Source of the DNA: Pseudomonas sp. EpS/L25
GTDB taxonomy: Bacteria; Pseudomonadota; Gammaproteobacteria; Pseudomonadales; Pseudomonadaceae
Direction of reading: 5' to 3'
Assembly: GCF_001512295.1 (NCBI RefSeq)
Contig: NZ_LNUP01000002.1
Span: 1,242,263-1,306,262, forward strand
DNA: 64,000 bases
Part shown: piece by piece, positions 10,304 through 53,554 of the stretch
Layout: every line of letters starts with the position of its first letter
Numbering within the stretch: the first letter of the stretch is position 1
The notes under the pieces: generated by a model
What the model was told of the DNA's origin: nothing
Seen by the model: only the letters and a program-made list of their open reading frames with translations
Databases searched by the model: none
Program-made: the position numbers and the translations under genes

Positions 10304-10515
10304 AAGCTGTTCACTATCTGCTGCGCGTCGGCCAAACTGCGTTGAAAATGCCTTCGGAATGCTCATTTACCCTGCGTAAACCCGATCGCGGGTCCGATCC
10401 GCTTCCTCAGGCATCTGATTCGCTAGCGCTCACCCTTCGGGCCAGCCGTTGGCTGTTACTCCCGGTGGTCGTTGCGCCTTGTTTGGCTCTAGCTCGCGAG
10501 ATCGTGAACAGCTGC
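10304..10515 (+). repeat. Dispersed structured repeat, copy 1
   Basis: About 212 bp lying immediately after the alaS stop. The ends are complementary: AGCTGTTCAC at 10305-10314 and GTGAACAGCT at 10504-10513. Inside are an internal stem (AAATGCCT at 10346-10353 against AGGCATCT at 10409-10416, one mismatch) and the hairpin ACCCG-ATCG-CGGGT at 10380-10393. The same core (CTGCTGCGCGTCGGCCAAAC near the left end) recurs in six other places in this window. It fills most of the alaS-lysC gap. Confidence 0.85.
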
Positions 10516-10602
10516 TAAGCGGGTGCGGGTTGCCAGGGGAGGGCGACCCGAAACCTCATCCAACAATGTAAATCAGATTTTTCTGCGGACGGGCAGCAAG
10601 CA

Positions 10603-11838
10603 ATGGCATTGATCGTACAGAAATTCGGCGGTACCTCGGTGGGTACGGTGGAGCGTATCGAGCAGGTCGCCGACAAGGTGAAACGCTTCCATGAAGCGGG
10701 TGACGAGATCGTGGTGGTGGTGTCGGCCATGAGTGGCGAGACCAACCGCCTGATCGGCCTGGCCAAGCAGATCATGGAGCAACCCGATCCGCGTGAGCTG
10801 GACGTCATGGTCTCCACCGGCGAGCAGGTCACCATCGGCCTGCTCGCCATGGCGCTGCTCAAGCGCGGCGTCCAGGCGGTGTCCTATACCGGCAGCCAGG
10901 TGCGCATCCTCACCGACAGCGCCCACACCAAGGCGCGCATCCAGCAGATCGACGACGCCCGCATCCGTGCCGACCTCAAGGCGCGCAAGGTGGTGGTCGT
11001 GGCCGGCTTCCAGGGCGTCGACGAGCAGGGCAACATCACTACCCTTGGCCGGGGTGGCTCCGACACCACCGGCGTGGCCCTGGCGGCCGCGCTGAAGGCC
11101 GACGAGTGCCAGATCTATACCGACGTCGATGGCGTCTACACCACCGACCCCCGCGTGGTGCCCCAGGCCCAGCGCCTGGACAAGATCACCTTCGAGGAGA
11201 TGCTGGAAATGGCCAGCCTCGGCTCCAAGGTGCTGCAGATCCGCTCGGTGGAATTCGCCGGCAAGTACAACGTGCCGCTGCGCGTGCTGCACAGCTTCCA
11301 GGAGGGTCCGGGCACCCTCATTACCCTTGATGAAGAGGAATCCATGGAACAGCCGATCATCTCCGGCATCGCCTTCAACCGTGACGAAGCCAAGCTGACC
11401 ATTCGCGGTGTGCCGGATACCCCCGGCGTGGCCTTCAAGATCCTCGGCCCGATCAGCGCGGCCAACATCGAAGTCGACATGATCGTGCAGAACGTGGCGC
11501 ACGATAACACCACCGACTTCACCTTCACCGTGCACCGCAACGACTACCAGAGCGCCCTGGAGATCCTCAAGCGCACCGGCGTCGAGATCGGCGCGCGGGA
11601 GTCGGTGGGCGACACCAAGATCGCCAAGGTGTCCATCGTCGGCGTCGGCATGAGATCCCATGCCGGTGTGGCCAGCCAGATGTTCGAAGCCCTGGCCAAG
11701 GAGAGCATCAACATCCAGATGATCTCCACCTCCGAGATCAAGGTGTCGGTGGTCATCGAGGAGAAATACCTCGAGCTGGCCGTGCGCGCATTGCACACCG
11801 CCTTCGAACTCGACGCCCCGGCACGCGGCGCCGAGTGA
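10603..11838 (+). CDS. lysC: Aspartokinase
   Basis: A 411-residue aspartate kinase, the first enzyme of lysine, threonine and methionine synthesis. The kinase domain begins ALIVQKFGGTSVG and includes GRGGSDTTGVALAAAL near residue 150. Two ACT domains (about residues 265-405) provide allosteric control by lysine/threonine. The ribosome-binding site is weak (AGCAAG). The alaS-lysC-rsmA order is the usual pseudomonad one, although a repeat has been inserted upstream. An internal start at Met248 may give a second, regulatory product. Confidence 0.97.
   Translation: MALIVQKFGGTSVGTVERIEQVADKVKRFHEAGDEIVVVVSAMSGETNRLIGLAKQIMEQPDPRELDVMVSTGEQVTIGLLAMALLKRGVQAVSYTGSQVRILTDSAHTKARIQQIDDARIRADLKARKVVVVAGFQGVDEQGNITTLGRGGSDTTGVALAAALKADECQIYTDVDGVYTTDPRVVPQAQRLDKITFEEMLEMASLGSKVLQIRSVEFAGKYNVPLRVLHSFQEGPGTLITLDEEESMEQPIISGIAFNRDEAKLTIRGVPDTPGVAFKILGPISAANIEVDMIVQNVAHDNTTDFTFTVHRNDYQSALEILKRTGVEIGARESVGDTKIAKVSIVGVGMRSHAGVASQMFEALAKESINIQMISTSEIKVSVVIEEKYLELAVRALHTAFELDAPARGAE
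11334..11346 (+). promoter_or_regulatory. Internal ribosome-binding site and start for a lysC beta product
   Basis: AGAGGA at 11334-11339 sits four bases before an in-frame ATG at 11344 (Met248 of LysC). Initiation here would yield a 164-residue polypeptide consisting of the ACT regulatory domains only. Alpha2-beta2 aspartokinases made by this kind of in-frame alternative start are established in Bacillus and Corynebacterium and are annotated for Pseudomonas LysC. The site is visible in the sequence; its use here is inferred. Confidence 0.6.
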
Positions 11839-11850
11839 TCGTGAAGCGAG

Positions 11851-11870
11851 GCCCCTGCCACAGGGGCTTC
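11851..11870 (+). terminator. Weak hairpin after lysC
   Basis: GCCCCTG-CCA-CAGGGGC forms a 7-bp stem 12 bp after the lysC stop, followed by TTCATCT rather than a clean T run. It may be a weak or Rho-assisted terminator separating lysC from rsmA. Confidence 0.45.
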
Positions 11871-11992
11871 ATCTATCGCCCGGGCTGCGGAACTTTCCTT
11901 GCATGAATGCAGGTCAATAGCGACTAGAGGGTCCATTCAGGGATCGTTCCGGGTTATTCGTGCAGACTGGGTTAAAGCTTAAGGAGAATGGA

Positions 11993-12178
11993 ATGCTTAT
12001 TTTGACTCGTCGGGTTGGTGAGACCCTGATGGTAGGTGACGAAGTCACCGTGACGGTGCTGGGAGTCAAGGGCAACCAAGTCCGGATCGGTGTCAACGCG
12101 CCCAAGGAAGTCGCGGTTCATCGCGAGGAAATCTACCAGCGCATCCAGAAGGAAAAGGACCAAGAACCAAACCACTGA
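11993..12178 (+). CDS. rsmA: Carbon storage regulator / post-transcriptional regulator RsmA
   Basis: A 61-residue CsrA-family homodimeric RNA-binding protein. It binds GGA motifs in leaders and controls translation and stability of many mRNAs. [18 protein letters not shown] and [19 protein letters not shown] are the family sequence, including the RNA-contacting first strand and the basic residue in VHREEI. AAGGAGAATGGA precedes the ATG at 11993. An in-frame upstream start at 11960 would add 11 unrelated residues and is rejected. Confidence 0.97.
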
Positions 12179-12198
12179 TTTTTTTTGAATTTTTCTCT

Positions 12199-12226
12199 TT
12201 GCAAATGGGCAAACCTTCGATATAGT
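12199..12226 (+). promoter_or_regulatory. Promoter of tRNA-Ser
   Basis: TTGCAA (12199-12204) and TATAGT (12221-12226) are separated by 16 bp and followed by a GC-rich discriminator (TTCGCCCCG). This places transcription just before the tRNA-Ser gene. Confidence 0.7.
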
Positions 12227-12239
12227 TTCGCCCCGTTGC

Positions 12240-12330
12240 GGTGAGGTGGCCGAGTGGCCGAAGGCGCTCCCCTGCTAAGGGAGTACACCTCAAAAGGGTG
12301 TCGAGGGTTCGAATCCCTCCCTCACCGCCA
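12240..12330 (+). tRNA. tRNA-Ser (GCT)
   Basis: A 91-nt class II tRNA with encoded CCA. The acceptor stem is GGTGAGG/CCTCACC and the anticodon stem is CTCCC/GGGAG with anticodon GCT at 12274-12276. There is a long variable arm, and the T-loop is GGGTTCGAATCCC-like. It decodes AGC/AGU serine codons. Confidence 0.97.
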
Positions 12331-12395
12331 TTTGCAAGACCTGGCTCCGCTGTACTGACCTCGAAGGTAAGTACCTGATAAACAAGCAAATTCGC

Positions 12396-12423
12396 TTGAC
12401 ACGTCAGAAACGGTGGCTAGAAT
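12396..12423 (+). promoter_or_regulatory. Promoter of the tRNA-Arg pair
   Basis: TTGACA (12396-12401) and TAGAAT (12418-12423) with 16-bp spacing form a near-consensus sigma-70 promoter. It ends 13 bp before the first tRNA-Arg. Confidence 0.8.
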
Positions 12424-12436
12424 ACACGGCTTCAAC

Positions 12437-12513
12437 GCACTCGTAGCTCAGCTGGATAGAGTACTCGGCTACGAACCGAGCGGTCGGAGGTTCGAATCCT
12501 CCCGAGTGCGCCA
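12437..12513 (+). tRNA. tRNA-Arg (ACG), copy 1
   Basis: A 77-nt tRNA with encoded CCA. The acceptor stem is GCACTCG/CGAGTGC. The anticodon stem is CTCGG/CCGAG with ACG at 12471-12473; the first A is normally edited to inosine by TadA. It decodes CGN codons. Confidence 0.97.
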
Positions 12514-12573
12514 AATCGACGAAGCCTCTGGCTTCAGCAGTACCAGCGGTGTTCTGGCTAAACGCACCGAAAC

Positions 12574-12650
12574 GCACTCGTAGCTCAGCTGGATAGAGTA
12601 CTCGGCTACGAACCGAGCGGTCGGAGGTTCGAATCCTCCCGAGTGCGCCA
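12574..12650 (+). tRNA. tRNA-Arg (ACG), copy 2
   Basis: Identical in sequence to the copy at 12437-12513 and separated from it by a 60-bp spacer. The anticodon ACG is at 12608-12610. No separate promoter is evident in the spacer, so the pair is probably cotranscribed. Confidence 0.97.
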
Positions 12651-12659
12651 AACATGAAG

Positions 12660-12690
12660 AAGGGCCTGCAGCGATGCAGGCCCTTTTTTA
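12660..12690 (+). terminator. Rho-independent terminator of the tRNA-Arg operon
   Basis: GGGCCTGCA-GCGA-TGCAGGCCC is a perfect 9-bp stem with a tetraloop, followed by TTTTTT. Confidence 0.93.
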
Positions 12691-12857
12691 TTGCCCGTGG
12701 ATTCATGTTTATTGCTCCAGGAATTCATGGTCATTGCCCATGGATTCGTGCTTATTGCCCGTGGCTCCATAAAGATATCTGGGGTCAATCACCTTGCCGA
12801 GGTTCTGCCTAGGCCCGGTCTCAGTTTTTCGAATATTGCCAGCGAGAGGGTCGCAAC

Positions 12858-13298
12858 ATGCAATGGGACAGACCGGCTCCCCATGTCATGCCGCTGCGGA
12901 TCGGTGCCGAGCACATCGACGGCCTGGGGCACGCCAACAACGCGGCCTACGTCACCTGGCTGGAGCGATGCGCCTGGCAGCACTCCAGCGCCCTGGGCCT
13001 GGACCTCGCTACCTTCCGGCGGCTGGATCGGGCGATGGCCGTCGTCCGCCACGAGATCGACTATCTCGTCAGTGGCCGCCAGGATGACGAGTTGCTGCTG
13101 GGCACCTGGCTGGTGGACTGGGATCACCGCCTCCGCATGACTCGCCAGTTCCAACTGCTGCGTCCAGTCGATGGCGTGACCCTGCTGCGCGCCCGGACAA
13201 CCTTCGTCTGCATCGAACTGTCGTCCGGCAAGCCCAAGCGCATGCCACCCGAGTTCCTGGCCGGTTACGGCCAGGCCTTGCCAGGGGAGGGCGTCTGA
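12858..13298 (+). CDS. Hotdog-fold acyl-CoA thioesterase (4HBT/YbgC type)
   Basis: A 146-residue single hotdog-domain protein. The signature [20 protein letters not shown] near residues 19-40 contains the Asp and GHxNNxxY of the 4-hydroxybenzoyl-CoA thioesterase family. It should hydrolyse acyl-CoA thioesters, but its substrate cannot be told from sequence. GAGAGGG precedes the ATG. The gene stops 2 bp before dusC begins, so the two are coupled. Confidence 0.85.
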
Positions 13299-13300
13299 AC

Positions 13301-14299
13301 ATGGAGATCGCCCTGGCGCCCATGGAGGGCCTCGTCGACGACATCCTGCGCGAGTTGCTGACCGAGGTCGGTGGACTCGACTGGTGCGTGAGCGAATTCA
13401 TTCGCGTCTGCGATCGCCTGTTGCCCGCGGCGGCCTTCGCCAAGCTGGCGCCGGAGCTGGCGCAGGGCGCGCGGACGCCGTCGGGCACGCCCATGCGGGT
13501 GCAACTGCTGGGCTCGGACCCGGCCTGCCTCGCCGACAACGCCGCCTTCGCCTGCACCCAGGGCGCACCGGTGATCGATCTCAACTTCGGCTGCCCGGCC
13601 AAGACCGTCAACAAGTCCCGTGGCGGGGCGGTGTTGCTCAAGGAGCCCGAACTGCTCAACCGCATCGTCGAGAGCGTCCGCCAGGCCGTGCCAGCGGCCA
13701 TTCCGGTGACCGCCAAGATGCGCCTGGGCTATGACAGTCCGGACAGCGCCCTGGCCTGCGCCGAGGCCCTGGCGGCCGGAGGCGCGGCGCAGTTGGTGGT
13801 CCATGCGCGCACCAAGGTGGAGGGCTATCGCCCGCCGGCCCATTGGGAATGGGTGGCGCGGGTCGCCGACCGGGTAGCCGTGCCGGTGCTGGCCAATGGC
13901 GAGATCTGGACCCTGGACGATTACTGGCGTTGCCGTAGTGTCAGTGGCCAGGCCTCGGTGATGCTGGGTCGTGGCCTGGTCTCGCGCCCGGACCTGGCGG
14001 TGCAGATCGCCGCTGCCGTGCGCGGTGAGGAGGCGCGCCCCCTTGGCTGGGCCGAGATCCTGCCGCTGGTGCAGCGGTTCTGGCTGATGGCCCAGCGCAA
14101 GCTGGCACCGCGCTACGCGCCAGGTCGACTCAAGCAGTGGCTGGGGATGCTGACGCGCAGCTATCCCGAGGCCGCAGCGCTGTTCGCCCAGGTGCGGCGG
14201 GAGTCCGATTGCGCCCTGATCGATCGTCTGCTCGGTCTGAACGGCCCCAGCCCGGCCAACCTTGACCTCGATCAATACGCGTCCTCGCCGGTCGTCTAG
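13301..14299 (+). CDS. dusC: tRNA-dihydrouridine(16) synthase
   Basis: A 332-residue FMN-dependent TIM-barrel enzyme that reduces U16 in the tRNA D-loop. [20 protein letters not shown] is the DusC-type N-terminus. The catalytic Cys98 lies in [19 protein letters not shown], and [12 protein letters not shown] is specific to the DusC branch. It directly follows the thioesterase gene and is closed by a clear terminator. Confidence 0.95.
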
Positions 14300-14354
14300 G
14301 CTGCCAAGGGTGGTGACGGCGGAGCGTCGTCGCCGCGAGCACGCAAGGCACTTC

Positions 14355-14380
14355 AGGCGACCCCGGGTCGCCTTTTTTTC
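14355..14380 (+). terminator. Rho-independent terminator after dusC
   Basis: AGGCGAC-CCCGG-GTCGCCT followed by a seven-T run. Confidence 0.9.
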
Positions 14381-14453
14381 GTCTGCTGCACCGGTCGGAA
14401 CTTAGCCTGCGCAGCGCGGCCTATGCTGGACCTCCGGCAATCCTAGAACCTAA

Positions 14454-16457
14454 GTGCGCCTACCCTGGACCGTCTTTCTGGCACCTTCGCCCGCGGCGCT
14501 CGCCTTCGCCGGCAAGACCCTGTTCGCCGCCGGACTGGCACTGTGGCTGGCCTTTCGCTTCAATCTCGAGCAGCCGGTCTGGGCCTGCATGACGGTGATG
14601 ATCGTGTCCCAGCCGCTGTCGGGCATGGTGGTGGCCAAGGGACTGTTCCGCCTGCTCGGTACCCTGGCCGGTACCTGCATGGCGGTGGTGCTCATGGGGC
14701 TGTTCGCCCAGACGCCCTGGCTGTTCCTGCTGGCCCTGGCCAGCTGGATGGCGCTCTGTACGGCTGCCTCCACGCTGCTGCGCAATCACCTCTCCTACGG
14801 CTTCGTCCTGGCCGGCTATACGGTCGCCATCATCGGCCTGCCGGCCATCGCCCATCCGCTGACGGTGTTCGACCAGGCGGTAGCCCGCTGCACCGAGATC
14901 TGTCTGGGGATCGTGGTGGCCTCGGCGGTAAGCGCCCTGATCTGGCCGCAGCGCGTCGAGCAGACCCTGGCCGCCCAGGCGCGCCGTACCTGGGAGCAGG
15001 GCGTGGCAGCGGCGCGGGCGGAGCTGGCTGAGGCCGAGGATGCCACCCAGGGCCTGCTCGCCATGCTCGGCCAGGTGGTGGCGGTGGATGCCCAGCGTGA
15101 CCACACCTGGTTCGAGGGCCAGCGCGGTCGGCAACGCGCCAGGGCGTTGCGTCTGCTCTCGCGCGACCTGCTCAGCCTGCTGCGCACGGCCCGGGGTGCC
15201 ATGCGCCAGTGGCGGGCCCTGGATGCGCCCCGGCGCGCCGCGGTGCAGGGCTGGCGCGAGGAACTGCTCGCCACCCTGGCCGACCCCCGTCCGCCGGCCC
15301 TGGAGGCCCTGCTGCAGCGTTTGCGCGAGGCGGCGGGTGCCGACCCCTTGCTCGACAACGATCAGCGCTACCTGCTCGCTCGCTTCGCCATCCTGCTGGA
15401 CAAGATCCTGCTCGCCGGGCGCGCCCTGGACAGCGTCCATACGGCGCAGCTCAGCGCCGTGGCACCCTCGGCCCTGGCCCGCCATCGTGATCTGCAGACA
15501 GCGCTGCTCTACGGTCTGCGCAGCGCCGGCGCGCTGCTCGGTGTGGGGGTGTTCTGGCTGGCCAGCGCCTGGCCCTCGGCGCCCGGAGCCATGCTCATGG
15601 CCGGGGTGATCTGCAGCCTGTTCGCCAACCGCGACAATGCCGTCACCATCGGCTTCGGCTTCCTGCGCGGCATCCTCTATGCCGCACCGGTCGCCATCGT
15701 CATCAGCCAGGTGCTGCTGCCGCAGATTTCCGGCTATCCCTTGCTCTGCCTGGTGCTGGGTGTGCCGCTGTTCTTCGCCGCCCTGGGGATGGCCGGACCG
15801 CCGGCGGTGGTGGGCACGGCGACGGCCTTCGCCATTCATCTGCTGGTACTGGTCTCTCCGAGCAACCAGGGACAGGTGGGCATGGCGGCCTTGCTCAATC
15901 AGTTGCAGAGTCTGCTGATCGGCGTCGGCTTCGCGGTGCTGATGTTCCGCCTGATCAGCCTGCGCACGCCGCGGCGTACCAGCCGCCGCATCCTGGAGGC
16001 CACCACCTACGACCTGCAGCGGCTGACCGCCGTCCCCCTGGCCAACGCCGAGACCTGGTTCGGTGGGCGCATGGCGGATCGCCTGTTGCTGCTCGCGCGC
16101 CATATCGAGCAACTGCCGCCAGGCGAGCGCAGGCGTTGGGAGCAGGGGCTGCTGGCGCTGGACCTGGGCAACGAGCTGCTGCACCTGCGCGCCTGCCTGG
16201 CCGGTGCCCAGGGCGAGGTGGCACGGGCCCGGGATGCCTTTCTGGCCCTCTTCGCCGAGCGGTTGGCCGTAGGCTTCGGCGCGCTGCAACCAAGCGCCCT
16301 GGACGAGGCCGCGAGTCGCCTGCGCCTGGCCCTGGACGGGGCGCCGGACGACGAGCCCCATCGGCTCGCGCGCGGCGCCATCGGTCAACTCCAGCAGACC
16401 TGGCGCGGCTGTTGTCCGAAGGTGGAGCAGGAGGAGGGTGCCTATGAATCTGCATGA
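14454..16457 (+). CDS. FUSC-family efflux membrane protein (AaeB-like)
   Basis: A 667-residue inner-membrane protein of the fusaric-acid-resistance / p-hydroxybenzoate efflux family. Two clusters of membrane segments (about residues 10-160 and 350-500) flank cytoplasmic domains. It is the inner-membrane component of a three-gene set with the overlapping DUF1656 gene and an HlyD-type adaptor, as in aaeXAB, and probably exports aromatic acids. The start is GTG at 14454 with no strong Shine-Dalgarno. The 3' end overlaps the DUF1656 gene by 14 bp. Confidence 0.88.
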   Translation: MRLPWTVFLAPSPAALAFAGKTLFAAGLALWLAFRFNLEQPVWACMTVMIVSQPLSGMVVAKGLFRLLGTLAGTCMAVVLMGLFAQTPWLFLLALASWMALCTAASTLLRNHLSYGFVLAGYTVAIIGLPAIAHPLTVFDQAVARCTEICLGIVVASAVSALIWPQRVEQTLAAQARRTWEQGVAAARAELAEAEDATQGLLAMLGQVVAVDAQRDHTWFEGQRGRQRARALRLLSRDLLSLLRTARGAMRQWRALDAPRRAAVQGWREELLATLADPRPPALEALLQRLREAAGADPLLDNDQRYLLARFAILLDKILLAGRALDSVHTAQLSAVAPSALARHRDLQTALLYGLRSAGALLGVGVFWLASAWPSAPGAMLMAGVICSLFANRDNAVTIGFGFLRGILYAAPVAIVISQVLLPQISGYPLLCLVLGVPLFFAALGMAGPPAVVGTATAFAIHLLVLVSPSNQGQVGMAALLNQLQSLLIGVGFAVLMFRLISLRTPRRTSRRILEATTYDLQRLTAVPLANAETWFGGRMADRLLLLARHIEQLPPGERRRWEQGLLALDLGNELLHLRACLAGAQGEVARARDAFLALFAERLAVGFGALQPSALDEAASRLRLALDGAPDDEPHRLARGAIGQLQQTWRGCCPKVEQEEGAYESA

Positions 16458-16647
16458 GTGGGCGATCGGCGGGGTCTATCTCGGACCGCTGTTCGTCTAT
16501 GGCGTCCTGGCCCTGGTCCTGACCGCGCTGTCCCTGTGGCTGCTGCAGCGCAGCGGGCTGGGGCGCTACCTGTGGCACAGCGCCCTGTTCGGCTGCGCCC
16601 TGTTCGTGCTCTGGCTGGCCGGCATCGTCGCCGTCCTGGCTACCTGA
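16444..16647 (+). CDS. DUF1656 small membrane protein (AaeX-like)
   Basis: A 67-residue protein with two membrane segments (about residues 10-32 and 45-65). It belongs to the DUF1656/AaeX family that always accompanies FUSC and HlyD efflux genes. The ATG at 16444 is preceded by AGGAGGGTG inside the FUSC gene; the in-frame GTG at 16438 lies within that ribosome-binding site and is rejected. The HlyD gene follows after 29 bp. Confidence 0.9.
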   Translation: MNLHEWAIGGVYLGPLFVYGVLALVLTALSLWLLQRSGLGRYLWHSALFGCALFVLWLAGIVAVLAT

Positions 16648-16676
16648 GCTCTATCGACAAGAGGATCGAGACGGCG

Positions 16677-17579: not shown

Positions 17580-17590
17580 AAGTCTCGAAT

Positions 17591-17794
17591 GGGCTGAAAA
17601 GTCGCCGAGCGAAGGCCAGGCAAGGCGCGACGACCAACGGGAGTAACGGCCAGTGGCTGGCCCTTAGGGTGAGCGCCAGCGAATCAGATTCGCGAGGAAG
17701 CGGACCGGGCTCGCGTTCGAGTCTACGAGTGGTAAATGAGCATTCCGAGCGAATTTGCAACGCGGCATGGCCGAGCGCATGCCCTTTTCAGTAC
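17591..17794 (-). repeat. Dispersed structured repeat, copy 2 (diverged ends)
   Basis: About 204 bp in the orientation opposite to copy 1, 11 bp after the HlyD-type stop. The ends share CTGAAAAG (17594-17601) with CTTTTCAG (17784-17791). Copy 2 keeps the internal blocks CGACCAACGGGAGTAACGGC and GGTAAATGAGCATTCCGA of the family, and its internal stem is changed on both sides (AAATTCGC against GCGAATCT when read in the family orientation). It occupies most of the 296-bp gap before yjcH. Confidence 0.75.
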
Positions 17795-17861
17795 GACTAA
17801 AGTCGTCTGGAAGCCTTACCGGGCGCGCCTAGAGTAGAGCTCGACGCTCCCGTCATGCTGT

Positions 17862-17875
17862 AAGGAACAACAATA
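17862..17875 (+). promoter_or_regulatory. Ribosome-binding site with A-rich Crc/Hfq-type motif, yjcH leader
   Basis: AAGGAACAACAATA lies directly before the ATG at 17876. AACAACAA (17866-17873) fits the AANAANAA catalytic-activity motif bound by Hfq/Crc in Pseudomonas and falls between the Shine-Dalgarno and the start codon. Repression of acetate uptake on preferred carbon sources is inferred. Confidence 0.6.
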
Positions 17876-20321: not shown

Positions 20322-20360
20322 AAAACGGGAGCCTGTTCGCACAGGCTCCCGTTTTGTTTT
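20322..20360. terminator. Strong bidirectional terminator
   Basis: AAAACGGGAGCCTGT-TCGC-ACAGGCTCCCGTTTT is a perfect 15-bp stem with T-rich flanks on both strands. It separates the DUF3309 gene from the convergent dacB. Confidence 0.93.
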
Positions 20361-20367: not shown

Positions 20368-20568
20368 AGAACCTGCTCAACCTTTCACGAGCTAGAGACA
20401 CACAGGGCCTAAGCGGCCCTGCGAAAATGGCTGAGGAAGCGGATCGTACCCGCGCTCGGGTTTACGAGGGGTAAATGAGCATGGCGACGGGGCCGCCCGG
20501 ATGGGGCTGGCCTTCCAGGCCATTTCAACGCCGTTTGGCCGACGCGCAGCAGACTTTGAACGGGTTCT
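20368..20568 (-). repeat. Dispersed structured repeat, copy 3
   Basis: About 201 bp in reverse family orientation, its right end touching the dacB stop codon. The ends AGAACCTGCTCAA and TTGAACGGGTTCT pair with two G-T wobbles. The internal stem is AAATGGC (20425-20431) against GCCATTT (20519-20525). The hairpins are ACCCG-CGCT-CGGGT (20448-20461) and CTGG-CCTT-CCAG (20507-20518). Confidence 0.85.
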
Positions 20569-22031
20569 TAGTTGGCGACGGTGCCATCCTGGCGACTGCG
20601 CAGATAGAGGTCCAGCACCACCTCGTCCAGGATCGAGGAGGCGCCCCAGGGGCGGTTGCTGTTGAGAATGGCCACCACCACCCAGCTGCGGGCGTTGGCG
20701 TCCCGCACGAAGCCCGCCAGGGCCCTTACGTTGTTCAGGGTGCCGGTCTTCATATGCGCCTGGCCGGTCAGCGGCGAGTTCTTCATGCGCTTGCGCAGGG
20801 TGCCATCCATGCCGGCCAGCGGTAGCGAGGCGATGAATTCCGGCGCATAGGGACTCTGCCAGGCCGATCTGAGGATCTCGGCCATCTCCCGGGCACTCAC
20901 CCGCTCGGTGCGCGACAACCCCGAGCCGTTCTCCATGATCAGGTGGCTGGCATTGATGCCCTTGCGCGCCAGCCATTGGCGAATCACCCGGAGTGCCGCC
21001 TTGCCGTCGTCCGCATCCGCCGAGGTGCGGAATTGCGCGCCGATGGAGAGGAACAGCTGCTGGGCCATGGTGTTGTTGCTGTACTTGTTGATGTCGCGAA
21101 TGATCTCCACCACGTCCGGGGAGAAAGCCCGCGCCAGCAGCTCGGCGTTGCGCGGCACGCTGCCCTCACGGGTGCGGCCCTTGATGCTGCCGCCCAGTTC
21201 CTGCCAGATGGCCCGTACGGCACCGGCGGTATAGGCGGGATGATCCAGCAGGGAGAGATAGCTCTGGGCGTTGCAGCCGTCCGGCAACTGGCCACTGACC
21301 ACCAGGCTGGTACTGCCATCGGCCTGGGGCACCGGGTTGAAGCGCACGTCCGGCCAGGCCGGGCAGCCGCTCTTGGCGGTGGCGCGCATCTGGTTGTCGA
21401 TGTTGACGTTGGTCAGTGGTGGGTCCATGGAGACGCTGACCCGGCCATCCGCCGAGCGCACCACCATGCGCACCGATTTCAGGTTCACCAGCAGCGAGTC
21501 CGGTCCGACCAGGAAGGTCTTGTTCTCGTCTTCGCCATCGTCGTTGAAGGCCGGCAACTCGGGCTTCACGAAGCGCCCGCGATCGAGCACCAGGTCACCG
21601 GTGACCTCCAGCACGCCGTTGGCGCGCAGGTCGCGCATGAGCAGCCAGAGCCGCTCCATGTTCAGCTTGGGATCGCCACCGCCCTTGAGATAGAGGTTGC
21701 CGTTGAGGATGCCGTCCTTGAGGGTGCCGTCGGTGTAGAACTCGGTCTTCCACTGGTAGGTGGGGCCGAGCAGTTCCAGGGCGGCATAGGTGGTGATCAG
21801 CTTCATGGTCGACGCCGGATTCACGGAGACGTCGGCGTTGTAGTAGTCGTTCTCGCCCGGCCCATCGAGGGGCAGCATCACCAGCGACAGATCGCTACCG
21901 GGGATCTTGTTGGTCTGCATGGCCTTCTCGATCCGCGGGGGCAGGAAGGAGGTATCGGCGTTGACGGGCAGGGAAAAGCCCAGGGCGCAGCAGCTCAGCA
22001 GCAGGCCCAGGGAGCGGAAGGGATTTCGCAT
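20568..22031 (-). CDS. dacB: D-alanyl-D-alanine carboxypeptidase/endopeptidase (PBP4)
   Basis: A 487-residue class C penicillin-binding protein that trims and cleaves peptidoglycan peptides in the periplasm. A signal peptide spans about residues 1-25. The serine nucleophile is Ser74 in STMK, the second motif is SNN in KYSNNTMAQ, and the third is KTG in HMKTGTLNNV. The large insert between SxxK and SxN is typical of DacB. The start is the ATG at 22031; the in-frame GTG at 22043 overlaps the AAAGG site and is rejected. Confidence 0.95.
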   Translation of the reverse strand: MRNPFRSLGLLLSCCALGFSLPVNADTSFLPPRIEKAMQTNKIPGSDLSLVMLPLDGPGENDYYNADVSVNPASTMKLITTYAALELLGPTYQWKTEFYTDGTLKDGILNGNLYLKGGGDPKLNMERLWLLMRDLRANGVLEVTGDLVLDRGRFVKPELPAFNDDGEDENKTFLVGPDSLLVNLKSVRMVVRSADGRVSVSMDPPLTNVNIDNQMRATAKSGCPAWPDVRFNPVPQADGSTSLVVSGQLPDGCNAQSYLSLLDHPAYTAGAVRAIWQELGGSIKGRTREGSVPRNAELLARAFSPDVVEIIRDINKYSNNTMAQQLFLSIGAQFRTSADADDGKAALRVIRQWLARKGINASHLIMENGSGLSRTERVSAREMAEILRSAWQSPYAPEFIASLPLAGMDGTLRKRMKNSPLTGQAHMKTGTLNNVRALAGFVRDANARSWVVVAILNSNRPWGASSILDEVVLDLYLRSRQDGTVAN

Positions 22032-22157
22032 GGGAACACACACCTTTGCAGGGTACCGGCCGAGATGGAGAGGAAAGGGGCCGGTAGACGTCGAAGTGTG
22101 GGCATTATGCAGTAAGGAGGGAGGAACGAGCCAACCCCGGAGGACGTGGCGCGGACA

Positions 22158-37440: not shown

Positions 37441-37685
37441 GAGAGCCTGTTCAAAGGCTCGCGAGCTAGAGCCCAGCAAGGCGCAACGACCAACGGGAGT
37501 AACAGCCAGCGGCTGGCCCGCAGGGTGAGTGCCAGCGAGTCAAAGGGCTGTGGAAGCGGATCGGACCCGCGCTCGGGTCTACGAGGGGTAAACGAGCATG
37601 GCGACGGGGCCGCCCAGGCGGGCCTGGCCTTCCAGGACATTTTCAACGCGGTTTGGCCAACGCGCAGCAGACTTTGAACAGGCTC
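37441..37685 (-). repeat. Dispersed structured repeat, copy 4
   Basis: The longest copy (245 bp), reverse orientation. It has perfect 14-bp complementary ends GAGCCTGTTCAAAG (37441-37454) and CTTTGAACAGGCTC (37672-37685). The hairpins are ACCCG-CGCT-CGGGT (37565-37578) and CCTGG-CCTT-CCAGG (37623-37636). The internal stem found in other copies is weak here. It occupies the 404-bp gap between the sensor and GNAT genes, the only copy not next to a stop codon. Confidence 0.88.
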
Positions 37686-41921: not shown

Positions 41922-42118
41922 GAGCCTGCTCAAAGTCTGCTGCGCATCGGCCAAACGGCGTTGAAAATGCCTTCGGAATGCTCATTTACCACTCGTAAAC
42001 TCCGCTTCCTCAGGCATTTGATTCGCTGGCGCTCACCCTGCGGGCCAGCCGTTGGCTGTTACTCCCGTTGGTCGTTGCGCCTTGTTTGTCTCTAGCTCGC
42101 GAGACTTTGAGCAGGCTC
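41922..42118 (+). repeat. Dispersed structured repeat, copy 5
   Basis: 197 bp in family orientation, 9 bp from the rdgC stop. The perfect 14-bp ends are GAGCCTGCTCAAAG (41922-41935) and CTTTGAGCAGGCTC (42105-42118). Relative to copy 4 one base pair differs, changed on both arms. The perfect internal stem is AAATGCCT (41965-41972) and AGGCATTT (42012-42019). It lacks the CCTGG hairpin segment. Confidence 0.88.
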
Positions 42119-46785: not shown

Positions 46786-46930
46786 CAGGCGGGCTCTCTG
46801 GCGGCGGACGGCCGTCTCCTTCAGCGAACGAAGGAATGGCGTCGACCTTTTCTGGCTATAGTAGGCATTCTCACCACAGCGCGCCGGGGCCACAACCGAA
46901 GATTCCGTCGCCTATGCCGGAAGATCCTGA

Positions 46931-48540: not shown

Positions 48541-48544
48541 AGCG

Positions 48545-48580
48545 GACCCTCACCCCGGCCCTCTCCCAAGGGGAGAGGGG
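48545..48580. repeat. Short palindromic repeat (CCCTCTCCC/GGGAGAGGG)
   Basis: CCCTCACCCC followed by CCCTCTCCC-AAG-GGGAGAGGG forms a 9-bp hairpin just after the vanR stop. A degenerate relative (CCCTCACCCC then CCCTCTCCC-TGA-GGGA) lies at 55666-55692 after fcs. This is a common genome-wide palindrome that may act as a terminator. Confidence 0.6.
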
Positions 48581-48585
48581 GAGTA

Positions 48586-48740
48586 AGAACCTGTTCACGA
48601 TCTGCTGCGCGTCGGCCAAACGGCGTTGAAAATGCCTTCGGAATGCTCATTTACCACTTGTAACTGCGCTTCCTCAGCTATTTTCGTGGGGCCGCCTAGG
48701 CCTTGTTTGGCTCTAGCTCGCGAGATCGTGAACAGGTTCT
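48586..48740 (+). repeat. Dispersed structured repeat, copy 6 (short)
   Basis: The shortest copy (155 bp), family orientation. It has perfect 18-bp complementary ends, AGAACCTGTTCACGATCT (48586-48603) and AGATCGTGAACAGGTTCT (48723-48740). The middle is deleted relative to copies 1 and 5, and the internal stem is only partial. It lies 45 bp after vanR and 17 bp from the vanB stop. Confidence 0.88.
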
Positions 48741-48757
48741 AGGGTGGGCTCGGTTTG

Positions 48758-49711
48758 TCAGAGATCCAGCACCAACCGCTCGCCCTTGGCGCGGGAGCAG
48801 CAGGGGGTGAAGCGGTCATTGGCGGCGTGCTCGGCTGCGGAGAGAAAGAGGTCGCGGTGCTCGGGTTCGCCGGCCAGCACCGGGGTCAGGCAGGTGCCGC
48901 AGAGGCCCTGGCCACAGGAGACCGGCAGGACGACACCCAGGTCAGCCAGAACCTCGACCACGCTGCGTTCGGCCGGTACCTGCACGCGGCGACCGCTGCG
49001 CGCCAGTTCCACCTCGAAGGGTCTTTGCTCGCCCTGAACGGCGGGATCGGCGGCGAAGTACTCCCGATGGATCTGCCCGGGTTGCCAGCCCTGGGCCTGG
49101 GCGGCGTCCACCACCGCGGCCATGAAACCGGCCGGCCCGCAGACATAGAGGTGGTCGTCCGGTGCCGCCGGACCGAGCAGGTGCTGGAAGTTGGGGCGTA
49201 GCGCCGGATCGTGCTGGTCGAAGTGCACCTTGACCCGATCGGCATAGGGCCGCGCCTTGAGCCAGGGGATGAAGGCCGCATGCTCGCGGTCCCGCACCAG
49301 GTAGCGCAGCTGGAAGTGAGCGCCTAGCCGATGGAGCTGTTCGGCCATGGCCAGGATCGGCGTGATGCCGATGCCGCCGGCCAGCAGTTGGGTGCGGCGC
49401 GCAGTGGGGACCAGGGCGAAGAGATTACGCGGCTCGCTCGCCTGGAGGTGGTCACCCACCTGCAGCCGATGCATGGCCTGGGAGCCGCCGCGGGAGTCGG
49501 CGACGAGCAGCACGGCGATGCGGTAGTGGGTCGGTGCGGGCTCGGGCGCGCTGCAGAGCGAGTAGTGGCGCACCAGGCCGTCGCCCAGGGTGATCTCCAG
49601 ATGGGCCCCGGCGGCGAAGCCGGGTAGGGGGCCGCCGTCGGCCCGGGCCAGGTCGAAGGCCAGGACGGTGGGGGCCTCGCGCTGCACGGCGGTGACGATC
49701 AGATCGAGCAT
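48758..49711 (-). CDS. vanB: Vanillate O-demethylase reductase subunit
   Basis: A 317-residue flavin/iron-sulfur reductase. It has an FAD/FMN-binding barrel (RHYSLCSAP near residue 48), an NAD-binding domain (GGIGITPILAMAE near residue 113) and a C-terminal plant-type 2Fe-2S ferredoxin (CGQGLCGTCLTP and a later Cys in TPCCS). It passes electrons from NAD(P)H to VanA. AGGAG precedes the ATG at 49711, and longer frames upstream read out of phase through vanA. The gene follows vanA by 10 bp. Confidence 0.95.
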   Translation of the reverse strand: MLDLIVTAVQREAPTVLAFDLARADGGPLPGFAAGAHLEITLGDGLVRHYSLCSAPEPAPTHYRIAVLLVADSRGGSQAMHRLQVGDHLQASEPRNLFALVPTARRTQLLAGGIGITPILAMAEQLHRLGAHFQLRYLVRDREHAAFIPWLKARPYADRVKVHFDQHDPALRPNFQHLLGPAAPDDHLYVCGPAGFMAAVVDAAQAQGWQPGQIHREYFAADPAVQGEQRPFEVELARSGRRVQVPAERSVVEVLADLGVVLPVSCGQGLCGTCLTPVLAGEPEHRDLFLSAAEHAANDRFTPCCSRAKGERLVLDL

Positions 49712-49721
49712 GAGGAGTCTC

Positions 49722-50780
49722 CTAGGCGATCTGCCGGACCGGGATGCCGGTGGCGGCCTGTTCGGCGGCCAGCAGGCGGTCGATGATCTGCCGCGACTGC
49801 ACGCCGCCGGCATCGATGTTGAGCTTGAGCAGGCCGCGCTCGGGATAGCGCAGCAGGTTCTGCTGCTGGCGTTCGAGCATTTCCAGGTCTTCGCTGAAGA
49901 TCCTGCCCTGGCCCTCGCGGATGCTGGCGGTGAGTTCGGCGTCCTCCGGCTTGAAGTTGCGCGCCATGCCCCAGAAGTACCAGATGGAGGTCTCGGTTTC
50001 GGGGGTGATGAAGTCCACCACCACGCTGGCGGCCTTGACCGCGGCCGGAGCGTGGTAGCCACCATGACCGGCATGGGCCACGCCCACCTCGATCATCACG
50101 TGGCTGGGCGGGGTGAAGCGGCAGATCTGCCAGCGATCCACCGGAACGTCGTCGGCCAGGCCGTTGCCGCGCAGGGCCATGCGCCAGAAGGGCGGGGCGG
50201 AGATGTTTTCCATGTGCCGGCTGGTGATGACCTCGTCGCCTTCGACGCGGGTGGCCGGCGGCGCCTCGTCGATCTCCTTCTGGCCGATGCTGGAAGCGTG
50301 GACATAGGTCTCGTGGGTGAGATCCATGAGGTTGTCGATCATCAGCCGGTAGTCGCACTGGATGTGATAGAGGCCACCGCCATAGGCCCAGTCGGGGCTC
50401 TCGGCCCATTCCAGGTGGGGGATCAGCGCGGGCTCGGCCTTGGCCTGGTCGCCCGGCCAGACCCAGACGAAGCCGTAGCGTTCGACGACGGCATAGGGGC
50501 GCACCGCGGGAAAGACCCCGACCCGCTGGCCCGGCATGCCGAGGGTCTTGCCGCCGCAGCCCATCTCCAGGCCGTGGTAGCCGCAAACCAGGGTGCCGTC
50601 GCGGACGAAGCCCAGGGACAGCGGCGCGCCACGGTGCGGGCAGAAGTCTTCCAGGGCCACCACCTGGCCGTTGGCATCACGACAGAAGACCAGGGGTTCG
50701 CCGCAGATCTGGCGACCCAGGGGTTTGTCCTGCACTTCGTCGGGGGTACAGGCGACGTACCAGGCGTTCTTCGGGTACAT
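49722..50780 (-). CDS. vanA: Vanillate O-demethylase oxygenase subunit
   Basis: A 352-residue Rieske non-heme iron oxygenase. It demethylates vanillate to protocatechuate and formaldehyde. The Rieske ligands are Cys47, His49 (CPHRG), Cys66 and His69 (CGYHG). The mononuclear iron site is in DNLMDLTHETYVH near residue 155. AAGAGG lies upstream of the start inside an A-rich motif, with the VanR operator just before it. Confidence 0.96.
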   Translation of the reverse strand: MYPKNAWYVACTPDEVQDKPLGRQICGEPLVFCRDANGQVVALEDFCPHRGAPLSLGFVRDGTLVCGYHGLEMGCGGKTLGMPGQRVGVFPAVRPYAVVERYGFVWVWPGDQAKAEPALIPHLEWAESPDWAYGGGLYHIQCDYRLMIDNLMDLTHETYVHASSIGQKEIDEAPPATRVEGDEVITSRHMENISAPPFWRMALRGNGLADDVPVDRWQICRFTPPSHVMIEVGVAHAGHGGYHAPAAVKAASVVVDFITPETETSIWYFWGMARNFKPEDAELTASIREGQGRIFSEDLEMLERQQQNLLRYPERGLLKLNIDAGGVQSRQIIDRLLAAEQAATGIPVRQIA

Positions 50781-50788
50781 GAGCGGGA

Positions 50789-50803
50789 CCTCTTGTTGTT
50801 GTT
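50789..50803 (-). promoter_or_regulatory. A-rich Crc/Hfq-type motif at the vanA ribosome-binding site
   Basis: On the minus strand AACAACAACAAGAGG overlaps the Shine-Dalgarno of vanA and starts 9 bases from its ATG. It matches AANAANAA. The same sequence block precedes ech and vdh. Confidence 0.65.
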
Positions 50804-50804
50804 C

Positions 50805-50816
50805 ATTGGATCCAAT
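50805..50816. promoter_or_regulatory. VanR operator
   Basis: ATTGGATCCAAT is a perfect 12-bp palindrome identical to the VanR operator known from Caulobacter vanillate control. It directly follows the predicted -10 of vanA, so bound repressor would cover the transcription start. Confidence 0.82.
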
Positions 50817-50844
50817 AGTTATGAGGCTTAACCTTTCCTGTCAA
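50816..50844 (-). promoter_or_regulatory. Predicted vanA promoter
   Basis: On the minus strand TTGACA (50839-50844) is followed after 17 bp by TAACTA (50816-50821), a consensus -35 with a weak -10. The VanR palindrome begins at the -10 edge. Confidence 0.55.
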
Positions 50845-50901
50845 TGTGATTCTGTGGCAAAGGCGTCTATCAGGACGAATGGCGTCGCTATCTCCTCTGC
50901 T

Positions 50902-50913
50902 ATTGGATCCTGT
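50902..50913. promoter_or_regulatory. Second, imperfect VanR half-site
   Basis: ATTGGATCCTGT keeps the left half and centre of the operator but loses the right end. It lies 85 bp from the perfect site and could let VanR bind two sites, or could be a relic. Confidence 0.45.
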
Positions 50914-50963
50914 CTGCCGGATCATCCCCATCGCTCATCGCTATCGTTCAAGCTCGGCAAAAT

Positions 50964-50980
50964 AGTTAATTGACATAACT
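50964..50980 (+). promoter_or_regulatory. Predicted ech promoter -35 within an inverted repeat
   Basis: AGTTA-ATTGACA-TAACT: the 5-bp arms flank and overlap a consensus TTGACA (50970-50975). A possible -10, TAGCTT, follows at 50993-50998. A dimeric repressor of the MarR type that controls ferulate genes in relatives would fit such a site, but no such regulator gene is in the window. Confidence 0.5.
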
Positions 50981-51013
50981 AAATGCTCGGCGTAGCTTCT
51001 ATTCCATACCCCA

Positions 51014-51025
51014 AACAACAAGAGG
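51014..51025 (+). promoter_or_regulatory. A-rich Crc/Hfq-type motif at the ech ribosome-binding site
   Basis: AACAACAAGAGG overlaps the Shine-Dalgarno, eight bases before the ech ATG. Confidence 0.65.
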
Positions 51026-51033
51026 CACACGCC

Positions 51034-51864
51034 ATGAGCAGCTACGACGGACGCTGGCAGACGGTCAAGGTGGACATCGAGGACGGTATCGCCTGGGTGA
51101 CGCTCAACCGCCCTGAGAAACGCAACGCCATGAGTCCCACCCTCAACCGCGAGATGGTCGAGGTATTGGAGACCCTGGAGCAGGACGCCAGCGCCGGCGT
51201 GCTGGTGCTGACCGGTGCCGGCGATGCCTGGACCGCGGGCATGGACCTCAAGGAATACTTCCGCGAGACCGATGCCGGCCCCGAGATTCTGCAAGAGAAG
51301 ATTCGCCGCGACGCCTCTCAGTGGCAGTGGAAGCTGTTGCGCATGTACGCCAAGCCGACCATCGCCATGGTCAATGGCTGGTGCTTCGGCGGTGGCTTCA
51401 GCCCGCTGGTGGCCTGCGACCTGGCCATCACCGCCGACGAGGCCACCTTCGGCCTGTCCGAGATCAACTGGGGCATCCCGCCGGGCAACCTGGTGAGCAA
51501 GGCCCTGGCCGACACCGTTGGCCATCGCACCGCTCTCTACTATGTGATGACCGGCAAGACCTTCAGCGGTCCCGAGGCGGCGGCCATGGGCCTGGTCAAC
51601 CAGAGCGTGCCGCGCGATCGGTTGCGCGAGGTGACCATCGCCCTGGCGCGGGAGCTGCTGGACAAGAATCCGGTGGTGCTGCGCGCCGCCAAGGTCGGCT
51701 TCAAGCGTTGCCGCGAACTGACCTGGGAGCAGAACGAGGACTACCTCTATGCCAAGCTCGACCAGTCGCGCCTGCAAGATCCGGAGGGCGGTCGCGAACA
51801 GGGCATGAAGCAATTCCTCGACGAGAAGAGCATCAAGCCGGGCCTACAGACCTACAAGCGCTGA
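51034..51864 (+). CDS. ech: Feruloyl-CoA hydratase/lyase
   Basis: A 276-residue crotonase-fold enzyme. It hydrates and cleaves feruloyl-CoA (also p-coumaroyl- and caffeoyl-CoA) to vanillin (or the matching aldehyde) and acetyl-CoA. The residues known to matter in the P. fluorescens enzyme are all present at the same numbers: Ser123 (GGGFSPLV), Glu143 (LSEINWG) and Tyr239 (EDYLYA). Length is identical too. It is the first gene of an ech-vdh unit divergent from vanAB. Confidence 0.96.
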   Translation: MSSYDGRWQTVKVDIEDGIAWVTLNRPEKRNAMSPTLNREMVEVLETLEQDASAGVLVLTGAGDAWTAGMDLKEYFRETDAGPEILQEKIRRDASQWQWKLLRMYAKPTIAMVNGWCFGGGFSPLVACDLAITADEATFGLSEINWGIPPGNLVSKALADTVGHRTALYYVMTGKTFSGPEAAAMGLVNQSVPRDRLREVTIALARELLDKNPVVLRAAKVGFKRCRELTWEQNEDYLYAKLDQSRLQDPEGGREQGMKQFLDEKSIKPGLQTYKR

Positions 51865-51885
51865 AGCGCCACTGCCCACACGTAC

Positions 51886-51897
51886 AACAACAAGAGG
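51886..51897 (+). promoter_or_regulatory. A-rich Crc/Hfq-type motif at the vdh ribosome-binding site
   Basis: AACAACAAGAGG lies in the 40-bp ech-vdh gap and overlaps the Shine-Dalgarno of vdh. It is the same 12-mer as before ech. Confidence 0.65.
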
Positions 51898-51904
51898 TAG
51901 CGTC

Positions 51905-53353
51905 ATGGTCGAGGTATCCCTGCTCATCGGCGGCGCCAGCCGCCCGGCCGGTGACGGTCGTAGCTATCAACGTCGCCATCCGGTGACCGGCGCGGTGGTC
52001 TCCACGGTGGCCGCTGCCACCCTGGACGATGCCGATGCCGCGGTGGCGGCGGCCCAGGTCGCCTATCCTGCCTGGGCGGCGCTGCCGCCGGGTGAGCGCC
52101 GTCGCCGATTGCTGGCGGCGGCTGACGGCTTGGCCGCGCGCAGTGGCGAATTCGTCGCCCTGGCCGGGGAGACCGGCGCCATGGCCAACTGGTACGGCTT
52201 CAACGTGCACCTCGCGGCCAACATGCTGCGCGAGGCGGCGGCCATGACCACCCAGATCCAGGGTGAGGTCATTCCGTCCGACGTACCCGGCAGCTTCGCC
52301 ATGGCGCTGCGCCAGCCCTGCGGCGTGGTGCTCGGTATCGCGCCCTGGAATGCCCCGGTGATCCTCGGCACCCGTGCCCTGGCCATGCCCCTGGCCTGTG
52401 GCAACACCGTGGTGCTCAAGGCATCCGAGCAAAGCCCGGGCGTGCACCGGCTGATCGGCCAGGTGCTGCAGGACGCCGGGCTGGGTGACGGCGTGGTCAA
52501 CGTCGTCACCAACGCCCCGGAAGATGCCCCGGCCATCGTCGAGCGGCTGATCGCCAACCCGGCGGTGCGGCGGGTCAACTTCACCGGCTCCACCCGGGTC
52601 GGCCGCATCGTCGGCGAGCTGGCGGCGCGCCATCTCAAGCCGGCCGTGCTGGAGCTGGGCGGCAAGGCGCCGCTGCTGGTGCTGGACGATGCCGACCTGG
52701 ATGCCGCGGTCGCCGCGGCGGCCTTCGGTGCCTACTTCAACCAGGGACAGATCTGCATGTCCACCGAGCGCCTGCTGGTGGACGGCCGGATCGCCGACGC
52801 CTTCGTCGAACGCCTGGCGGCCAAGGTGCGCACCCTCAAGGCGGGCGATCCCAACGCACCCGATTCGGTGCTGGGCTCCCTGATCGACGCCAGCGCCGGC
52901 ACGCGCATCAAGGCGCTGATCGATGACGCCCTGGGCAAGGGCGCGCGCCTGGTCTGCGGCGGCGAGCTGGAGGGCAGCATCCTGCAGCCGACGCTGCTGG
53001 ATGGCGTCACCGCCGAGATGAAGCTCTATGCCGAGGAATCCTTCGGACCGGTCGCGGTGGTGATCCGTGCCGAGGGTGACGAAGCCCTGCTGTGCCTGGC
53101 CAACGATTCCGAATTCGGGCTCTCGTCGGCCATCTTCAGCCGCGACACCGCCCGTGCCCTGGCACTGGCCCAGCGGGTGGAGAGCGGCATCTGCCACATC
53201 AACGGCCCCACGGTGCACGACGAGGCGCAGATGCCCTTCGGCGGCGTCAAGGCCAGCGGTTATGGCAGCTTCGGCTCGCGGGCGTCCATCGACCATTTCA
53301 CCCAGTTGCGCTGGGTGACGCTGCAGACGGGGCCGCGCCACTACCCGATCTAG
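51905..53353 (+). CDS. vdh: Vanillin dehydrogenase
   Basis: A 482-residue NAD(P)-dependent aldehyde dehydrogenase that oxidises vanillin (and benzaldehydes) to vanillate. GIAPWNAPVILGTRALAMPLACGN is characteristic of the Vdh branch. The general base is Glu250 in LELGGKAP and the nucleophile Cys284 in GQICMSTERLL. It follows ech by 40 bp. Confidence 0.95.
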   Translation: MVEVSLLIGGASRPAGDGRSYQRRHPVTGAVVSTVAAATLDDADAAVAAAQVAYPAWAALPPGERRRRLLAAADGLAARSGEFVALAGETGAMANWYGFNVHLAANMLREAAAMTTQIQGEVIPSDVPGSFAMALRQPCGVVLGIAPWNAPVILGTRALAMPLACGNTVVLKASEQSPGVHRLIGQVLQDAGLGDGVVNVVTNAPEDAPAIVERLIANPAVRRVNFTGSTRVGRIVGELAARHLKPAVLELGGKAPLLVLDDADLDAAVAAAAFGAYFNQGQICMSTERLLVDGRIADAFVERLAAKVRTLKAGDPNAPDSVLGSLIDASAGTRIKALIDDALGKGARLVCGGELEGSILQPTLLDGVTAEMKLYAEESFGPVAVVIRAEGDEALLCLANDSEFGLSSAIFSRDTARALALAQRVESGICHINGPTVHDEAQMPFGGVKASGYGSFGSRASIDHFTQLRWVTLQTGPRHYPI

Positions 53354-53367
53354 TTTTCCTTAATTAA

Positions 53368-53554
53368 GGCTTGTTTGAAAAGTCGCCGAACGAAGGTTAG
53401 GCAGGGCAAAAATCAGCGAGGAGGCGGATCGGACTCGCGCTCGAGTTTACGAATGGTAAATGAGCATTGCGACGGGGCCGCCCAGGCCGGGCTGGCGATC
53501 CAGCTGATTTTTAACGCAGCATCACCGATGCGCAGGCACTTTTCAGACAAAGCC
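53368..53554 (-). repeat. Dispersed structured repeat, copy 7 (diverged ends)
   Basis: 187 bp in reverse orientation, 14 bp after vdh. The ends GGCTTGTTTGAAAAGT and ACTTTTCAGACAAAGCC pair with one bulge and one mismatch. It has a perfect 10-bp internal stem, AAAAATCAGC (53408-53417) and GCTGATTTTT (53503-53512). The hairpins are ACTCG-CGCT-CGAGT (53433-53446) and GCTGG-CGAT-CCAGC (53491-53504). All three helices differ in sequence from other copies yet stay paired. Confidence 0.82.

Follow-up and report, generated by a model that had tools for sequence, protein, structure and literature searches.

Since a 64,000-nucleotide stretch of the genome of Pseudomonas sp. EpS/L25 (contig NZ_LNUP01000002.1, positions 1,242,263 to 1,306,262; termed the window in the following) contains seven dispersed copies of a repeat that had not been assigned to any family and whose differences between copies appeared to be paired, the question arises what kind of element this is and why it should keep a fold. 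From our point of view, there is good reason to regard it as an old and widespread family of miniature inverted-repeat transposable elements (MITEs), in which the ends of IS5-type insertion sequences enclose a folded core that appears to be under selection and likely acts as a single strand. MITEs as such are a known class of element; the unusual part is the conserved folded core, of which about 65 bases are worth testing.

Covarying stems and persistent loops of the core

A repeat search and a covariance model placed all seven copies within about 2 bases of where the initial annotation had put them. The model, which was trained on 52 other copies (50 from named records, one each from a different part of the own genome and from a second genus of the bacterial family, and none of the seven), recovered 7/7 window copies, and the only other match at E <0.4 was the reverse strand of one of these copies. 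Side-by-side comparison of copies from named genomes revealed a minimal form of about 140 bases with a single hairpin fold. It starts with an inverted end, a subterminal arm, GCGTT, the inner stem, TC, GGAA, TGCTCA and TTTAC, and continues with a variable 5-base loop, GTAAA, CTCCGC, TTCC, TC, the other side of the inner stem, GCCTTG, the second subterminal arm and the second end. This form was present in 98 of 136 copies anchored on the core (95 without gaps), and all seven window copies follow the minimal plan with extra hairpin modules or an altered arm. Across 188 located elements, the ends of which were chosen with a bonus for matching flanks, the length ranged from about 120 to 330 bp (140-149 bases in 76 of them, 320-329 in the longest), and no transposase gene was found inside.

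The initial annotation had read the paired differences as a sign of selection on folding and had named a lack of significant covarying pairs as the outcome that would speak against it. Instead, a home-made test similar to R-scape was significant. In 67 non-redundant copies (out of 94 distinct ones that were located by the core and free of gaps), for which all column pairs were scored against a tree-based substitution shuffle, the nine top-scoring pairs fell on two hairpin diagonals with E values from 0.004 to 0.4. A larger set, in which 126 of 168 copies were used with their subterminal and core columns, was compared with a tree-based null model that keeps the number of changes in each column; here, the 13 highest covarying pairs all lay on hairpin diagonals, four pairs scored higher than anything in the 200 simulated alignments, and a family-wise value of 0.05 or less was reached by nine. 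Pair 32-107 covaries as well, yet it is a standard pair in only 68 of the 126 copies. In the 52 copies from other loci, which were hand-picked from the 67, pairing was found in 86.6% of the cells as compared with 73.9% in shuffles and 33-51% in slid structures, and 29 of 40 pairs showed changes on both sides; the GGAA and TTTAC stems were nearly invariant in this set, being partly fixed by the anchor. Twenty stretches from the own genome entered the pooled counts only, i.e. the tree events, the wobble events, the loop words and the covariation in 126 copies.

With mean z values of -6.4 and -7.5 for its two strands, the fold is highly stable, and a BLAST search with a single copy gave 46 matches in the own genome, with E values of 7e-80 for the next best copies. 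Because of these matches, the 86.6% pairing and the position of the 13 top pairs on the diagonals, chance is excluded as the origin of the repeats and their pairing. Both the pairing statistics and the covariation tests support selection on folding for the inner stems. For the terminal stems, by contrast, covariation is better explained by the likely need of a single transposase to match the two ends than by folding.

It had further been proposed that selection acts on folding rather than on sequence. This turned out to be wrong, as the internal loops GCGTT/GCCTTG and CTCA/CTCCG persist while the surrounding stems change. Outside the bacterial family, 22 model hits at 20 places of 18 genomes were inspected. 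Their stems are rewritten, with GGAA/TTCC replaced by AAAA/TTTT and TTTAC/GTAAA by TGTAG/CTACA or CGTAC/GTACG, and the ends are wholly different. Counted anywhere in the hit, CTCA occurred in 22, CTCCG in 20, GCCTTG in 19 and GCGTT in 17 of these 22 hits, and a strict ordered pattern of all motifs was found in 14 of them and in 136 of 168 minimal copies. Since the helices are rewritten on both sides and the loop motifs stay fixed, fold and loop sequence both appear to be selected.

The two strands are not equivalent in this respect. In 48 of 52 copies, the strand complementary to the core orientation had the better fold (-63.8 vs -54.4 kcal/mol on average), as it did in 22 of 22 distant hits, and it is on this strand that the mismatched loops are rich in G.A. 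Pair-breaking events on the core-oriented strand had A.C:G.T ratios of 41:15 in the inner stem, 17:6 in the subterminal arms and 87:51 in the ends, and the inner-stem ratio represents an excess of G.U-type mismatches on the complementary strand (p 0.0007 if the events are independent). On account of the better folding energy and the G.U-type excess, we take the strand ...CAAGGC...CGGAG...TGAG...AACGC... to be the folding one, which is supported but not proven.

The strongest rival to selection on the fold is mutational templating, in which template switching or hairpin gene conversion would correct a long imperfect palindrome and thereby change its arms jointly, without any selection on folding. 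It could well leave behind what was seen in the inner stem, namely 154 pair-to-pair double changes vs 77 pair-breaking single changes, and also whole stems that differ as blocks between copies. However, templating should also remove the mismatches inside the palindrome, whereas these loops are retained across many genera, and a strand bias of the wobble type is not among its predictions. As such, we regard it as rather improbable, although the raw double changes may still stem from it.

IS5-type ends, target sites and mobility

As expected of a MITE, the element has terminal inverted repeats, a target duplication, no inner transposase gene, multiple copies and an insertion polymorphism (one locus in 13 genomes). 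Like the MITEs of IS5-family insertion sequences, it is short and gene-less, duplicates its target, occurs in many copies and has its inverted ends in common with insertion sequences that carry DUF4096/DDE transposase matches; unlike in these MITEs, one folded core is common here to several end classes and to several families of the phylum. The 3-bp TNA duplication and the matching ends fit the traits of the IS1031-like group of the IS5 family.

Partner insertion sequences were found within the genus, namely one of 833 bp (L300) with a TGA target-site duplication and GAGCCTGTTCACGATCT at both ends, and one of 846 bp (L299/L082) with a TTA duplication and ends GAGCCTGTTCAAAATCT, one of which has one mismatch. 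The left terminal inverted repeat (48587-48603, + strand) of the window copy at 48587-48739 agrees with the end of the 833-bp sequence in 16 of 17 bases. This copy belongs to end class A, in which bases 11-17 of the left end most commonly read ACGATCT (30/102 copies), followed by AAAGTCT (20/102) and AAAATCT (6/102); the full 17-mers of the partners occurred exactly in 3/102 and 5/102 class A copies. Further IS5-type elements end in GGTTCTGTACGAAAAGT or GGGTTTGTCTGAAAAGTC, which resemble class B ends, and an IS5-type element from another genus (L321) ends in GAGCCTGTTTATGATCT on one side.

The initial annotation had considered that the copies might prove to be remnants of a known insertion sequence. 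Their ends are indeed of insertion sequence type; however, the model (E 0.01) found the core in none of the 56 loci fetched by IS5-type transposase matches. Hence, nothing points to a core that arose from an insertion sequence by deletion, and an interior derived from a parent element was rejected. The own genome holds many copies of IS5-type transposases on contigs C1, C4, C10 and C11, with 22 DUF4096 matches, several of them no more than about 15 bases away from the end of a contig.

When the ends of class A copies were placed by sequence alone with the flanks unseen, and 7 of 109 copies were dropped for shared flanks, 43 of the remaining 102 had identical flanking 3-mers, all of them TNA, as compared with 15.2 on average and at most 27 in 5000 shuffles. 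The target reads C-TNA-G, with a preceding C in 72 and a following G in 58 of the 102 copies, and its right-hand duplication is often worn to TNG. One such site is the stop codon of alaS (TAA, 10300-10302), which together with a second TAA (10516-10518) flanks the window copy at 10303-10515. In 13 genomes of the genus, this site holds the element only in the own genome, G003 and G007, in the latter two in opposite orientation; the other ten gave no model hit at the alaS locus, with seven keeping a closely comparable region and three a more distant one. Mobility, which the earlier annotation had allowed for, is thus supported by the TNA duplications and by empty vs separately occupied sites in relatives. 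In G007 and G003, the insertion lies in the alaS-lysC region (L288 and L290, 1904-2054), and its left end is worn.

Gene context was available for 93 of the 102 class A copies, with genes called by a home-made codon score that takes the first start codon. Within this set, 37 copies lay at most 1 base from the stop of a called gene (with the left end in 25, the right end in 16 and both ends in 4 cases), and 27 overlapped a called gene by more than 10 bases; given the first-start choice of the caller, we make no claim on intergenic placement. Every TNA reads as TAA or TGA on one of its two strands, and stop codons are therefore targets where an insertion is safe. A first count had pointed to a transcript-strand preference, with 37 left vs 12 right insertions at stops (49 of 94 copies at a stop that ends an open frame of at least 100 codons, control stops 11%; 94/102 copies tested). 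This preference was withdrawn because the count needs an intact right-hand stop, which is often worn, and the called genes give 25 vs 16.

One could still argue that copies at stop codons serve the host as 3' elements and work as terminators or RNA stabilisers within messages, which both their frequency next to stops and the very stable fold would suit. Against this stand the varying presence of the element between close relatives and its balanced orientation, and the insertions at stop codons are, as outlined, also the harmless ones. We therefore consider such a role for the host unlikely.

Range of the family and the copies of the window

A covariance-model search of the genome and its relatives, as suggested in the initial annotation, revealed a widespread family with copies far beyond the seven. 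The own genome contains at least 150 of them, as all 150 scored candidates matched the model at E 0.01, and copies with 93-95% identity to the query copy exist among them. Within the bacterial family, hits were found in 124 of 148 sampled genomes and 18 of 19 genera, with at most 22 matches scored per genome; some genera have few or none, and three genomes of the same genus gave only 3, 14 and 1 matches. Across the phylum, 86 of 398 sampled genomes and 36 of 212 genera had hits (58 of 338 among genomes of good quality), many of them weak (E 1e-4 to 1e-12), and the 20 places in 18 genomes described above were inspected. A core scan of named genomes found at least 108 stretches, mainly in Pseudomonas, but also in Stutzerimonas and in Chitinimonas, Vogesella and Pseudogulbenkiania, the last three of which are betaproteobacteria. 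The element further resides on 13 plasmids of Pseudomonas and on one replicon of Halomonas, without any listed feature at the matching positions. One minimal copy had no BLAST match in 50,697 phage records, and a phage origin was rejected on this ground; four stretches of viral contigs matched the core pattern. In one distant genome (L230, 301-570), two copies are arranged head to tail, 14 bases apart, and similar back-to-back copies occur in L167.

Within the window, the copy at 48587-48739 (+) reached the top model score of 111 bits and is preceded by TAA and followed by TAG. Its class A ends are GAACCTGTTCACGATCT and the exact complement, the right terminal inverted repeat being located at 48723-48739 (-). 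The conserved GCGTT loop, which reads AACGC on the opposite strand, lies at 48623-48627 (+), and the conserved apical part GGAATGCTCATTTAC, comprising the GGAA stem, the CTCA loop motif and the TTTAC stem, at 48640-48654 (+). Class A ends are likewise found in the copies at 41922-42118 (+; GAGCCTGCTCAAAGTCT and its exact complement), at 37443-37685 (-; GAGCCTGTTCAAAG), which is the longest form with extra hairpins, at 10303-10515 (+; GAAGCTGTTCACTATCT...), which has extra apical and right-arm hairpins, and at 20369-20567 (-), which adjoins the stop codon (20568-20570) of a gene for a PBP4-type carboxypeptidase (20568-22043, -). The end type differs in two copies, as that at 17591-17794 (-) has degenerate class B-like ends around a core with extra hairpins, and that at 53368-53554 (-) has class B ends (GGCTTTGTCTGAAAAGT) and the inner stem AAAAATCAGC/GCTGATTTTT.

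The stems quoted in the initial annotation are present, but their complementarity is not perfect in every copy. It is exact over 17 bases of the ends at 41922-42118 and 48587-48739 and over 14 bases at 37443-37685, whereas end mismatches were found at 10303-10515 and 20369-20567 and inner-stem mismatches at 37443-37685 and 48587-48739. The copies starting at 10303, 17591, 37443 and 41922 carry a long right-arm module at a fixed insertion point, which on the folding strand repeats GGGAGT and GGGTGAGC with small variations and echoes the loop motifs of the core. Beside the copy at 20369-20567, a strong hairpin GGAGCCTG...CAGGCTCC (20328-20349) bears a chance resemblance to the end sequence of the element. 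Elsewhere in the window, two identical 82-base blocks (12434-12515 and 12571-12652), which start 137 bases apart, hold one tRNA gene each (Rfam tRNA).

The folded core, its possible meaning and comparable known elements

In our reading, the copies would be moved by transposases of IS5-type elements encoded elsewhere that recognise both ends, and such recognition would explain the paired end changes as well as the several end classes. Judged from the sequence, the core likely serves the element as a folded single strand, more likely as RNA than as DNA, which could bind a host or transposon protein and thereby help the element to persist, with the core being retained while the ends are exchanged. 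One could go further and speculate, albeit tentatively, that a module of RNA or single-stranded DNA, retained across genera, travels on these non-autonomous transposons and outlives its own ends. Lineages of one core would then have acquired end sequences that suit different resident transposases, and a protein would recognise the looped hairpin.

Several points weigh against the interpretation of the core as a single strand within a transposase-mobilised MITE. Neither a transcript nor a protein partner nor a transposition event of the element was observed. Among the loci examined, the second commonest class A variant (AAAGTCT) has no partner, and no clearly intact partner with the class A ends was found, as the transposase reading frame of L082 is split (a programmed frameshift being possible) and the transposase match of L300 holds a stop codon. 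The wobble excess also occurs in the ends, where folding was not expected to matter, so that shared ancestry of the end types could account for part of this excess. Loop conservation is partly built in, since a core anchor served to find the minimal copies and the model used for the divergent ones includes the loop sequences. Finally, orientation shows no significant bias, neither relative to genes (tandem 33:23) nor relative to replication (86:64, p 0.09, for 150 listed of 212 copies in three one-contig genomes, with the terminus assumed opposite dnaA), and this balance argues against a strand-specific role inside host messages. Given that no clear placement bias by gene or replication was seen, a simple mutational strand bias is, on the other hand, not an obvious cause of the wobble excess.

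It is very unlikely that the core represents a double-stranded DNA binding site for transposition, e.g. of a host DNA-bending protein, with folding being incidental. The loop motifs are conserved sequence, and MITEs with host-factor sites are described in PMC4133298, but a duplex site needs neither the rewriting of helices on both sides nor a strand bias. That an ordinary MITE merely seems conserved through recent spread is hardly credible despite the 93-95% identical copies within the genome, because ends, subterminal arms and stems differ across many genera while the loops stay.

At gathering scores, Rfam recognised only five tRNAs in the window, and a relaxed search of seven loci gave two tRNAs and three weak hits below gathering score, none within the element; a known Rfam RNA family was rejected as no match exceeded the gathering score. 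Integron attC sites, HEARO and kink-turn motifs were weighed as further candidates, and no test supported them. ERIC, NEMIS, RUP and Correia elements are short mobile hairpin repeats between genes, some of which are processed in transcripts; they would differ from the element in sequence, in host and in duplicating TA rather than TNA. REP/REPIN sequences, which are associated with RAYT transposases, are high-copy extragenic palindromes in Pseudomonas. According to PMC3733652, REP sequences measure 20-40 bp, and this identity was rejected in view of the minimal element of about 140 bp, its TNA duplication and its IS5-type ends, no search for RAYT genes having been made. By their descriptions in passages of PMC6053426 and PMC4133298, MITEPsy3 (102 bp, attributed to ISPsy25, which is listed there as IS630) and the Tn3-type TIMEs (262 bp) are set apart from the element as well.

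The core sequence words were not found in a text search of 5.39 million open-access papers, and no description of a strand-marked core common to several end classes was found in the literature searched. Another repeat that comes close is R178 of P. fluorescens, which Silby et al. (2009; PMC2718517) list with a length of 101 bp, internal inverted repeats of 11 bp and copy numbers of 18, 28 and 9 in three strains. Its size and inner stem fit the core, which is present in records named P. fluorescens and P. brassicacearum, whereas covariation, end classes and a spread beyond P. fluorescens are not mentioned for R178 in the passages seen of that paper. As a guess from this description, R178 may be a partial earlier sighting of the element.

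Bacterial MITEs are usually treated as decayed scraps, whereas the family described here bears the hallmark of a functional structured nucleic acid. Its core of about 65 bases provides a concrete test case for why a parasite-like element keeps a fold, and its natural set of end variants lends itself to studying the way in which transposases and the non-autonomous elements that follow them keep pace with one another. The habit of inserting at stop codons further illustrates how a target preference permits spread with little damage. If true, a core with exchanged ends would be a bacterial counterpart of those SINE families of eukaryotes that have a core in common and tails of their own.

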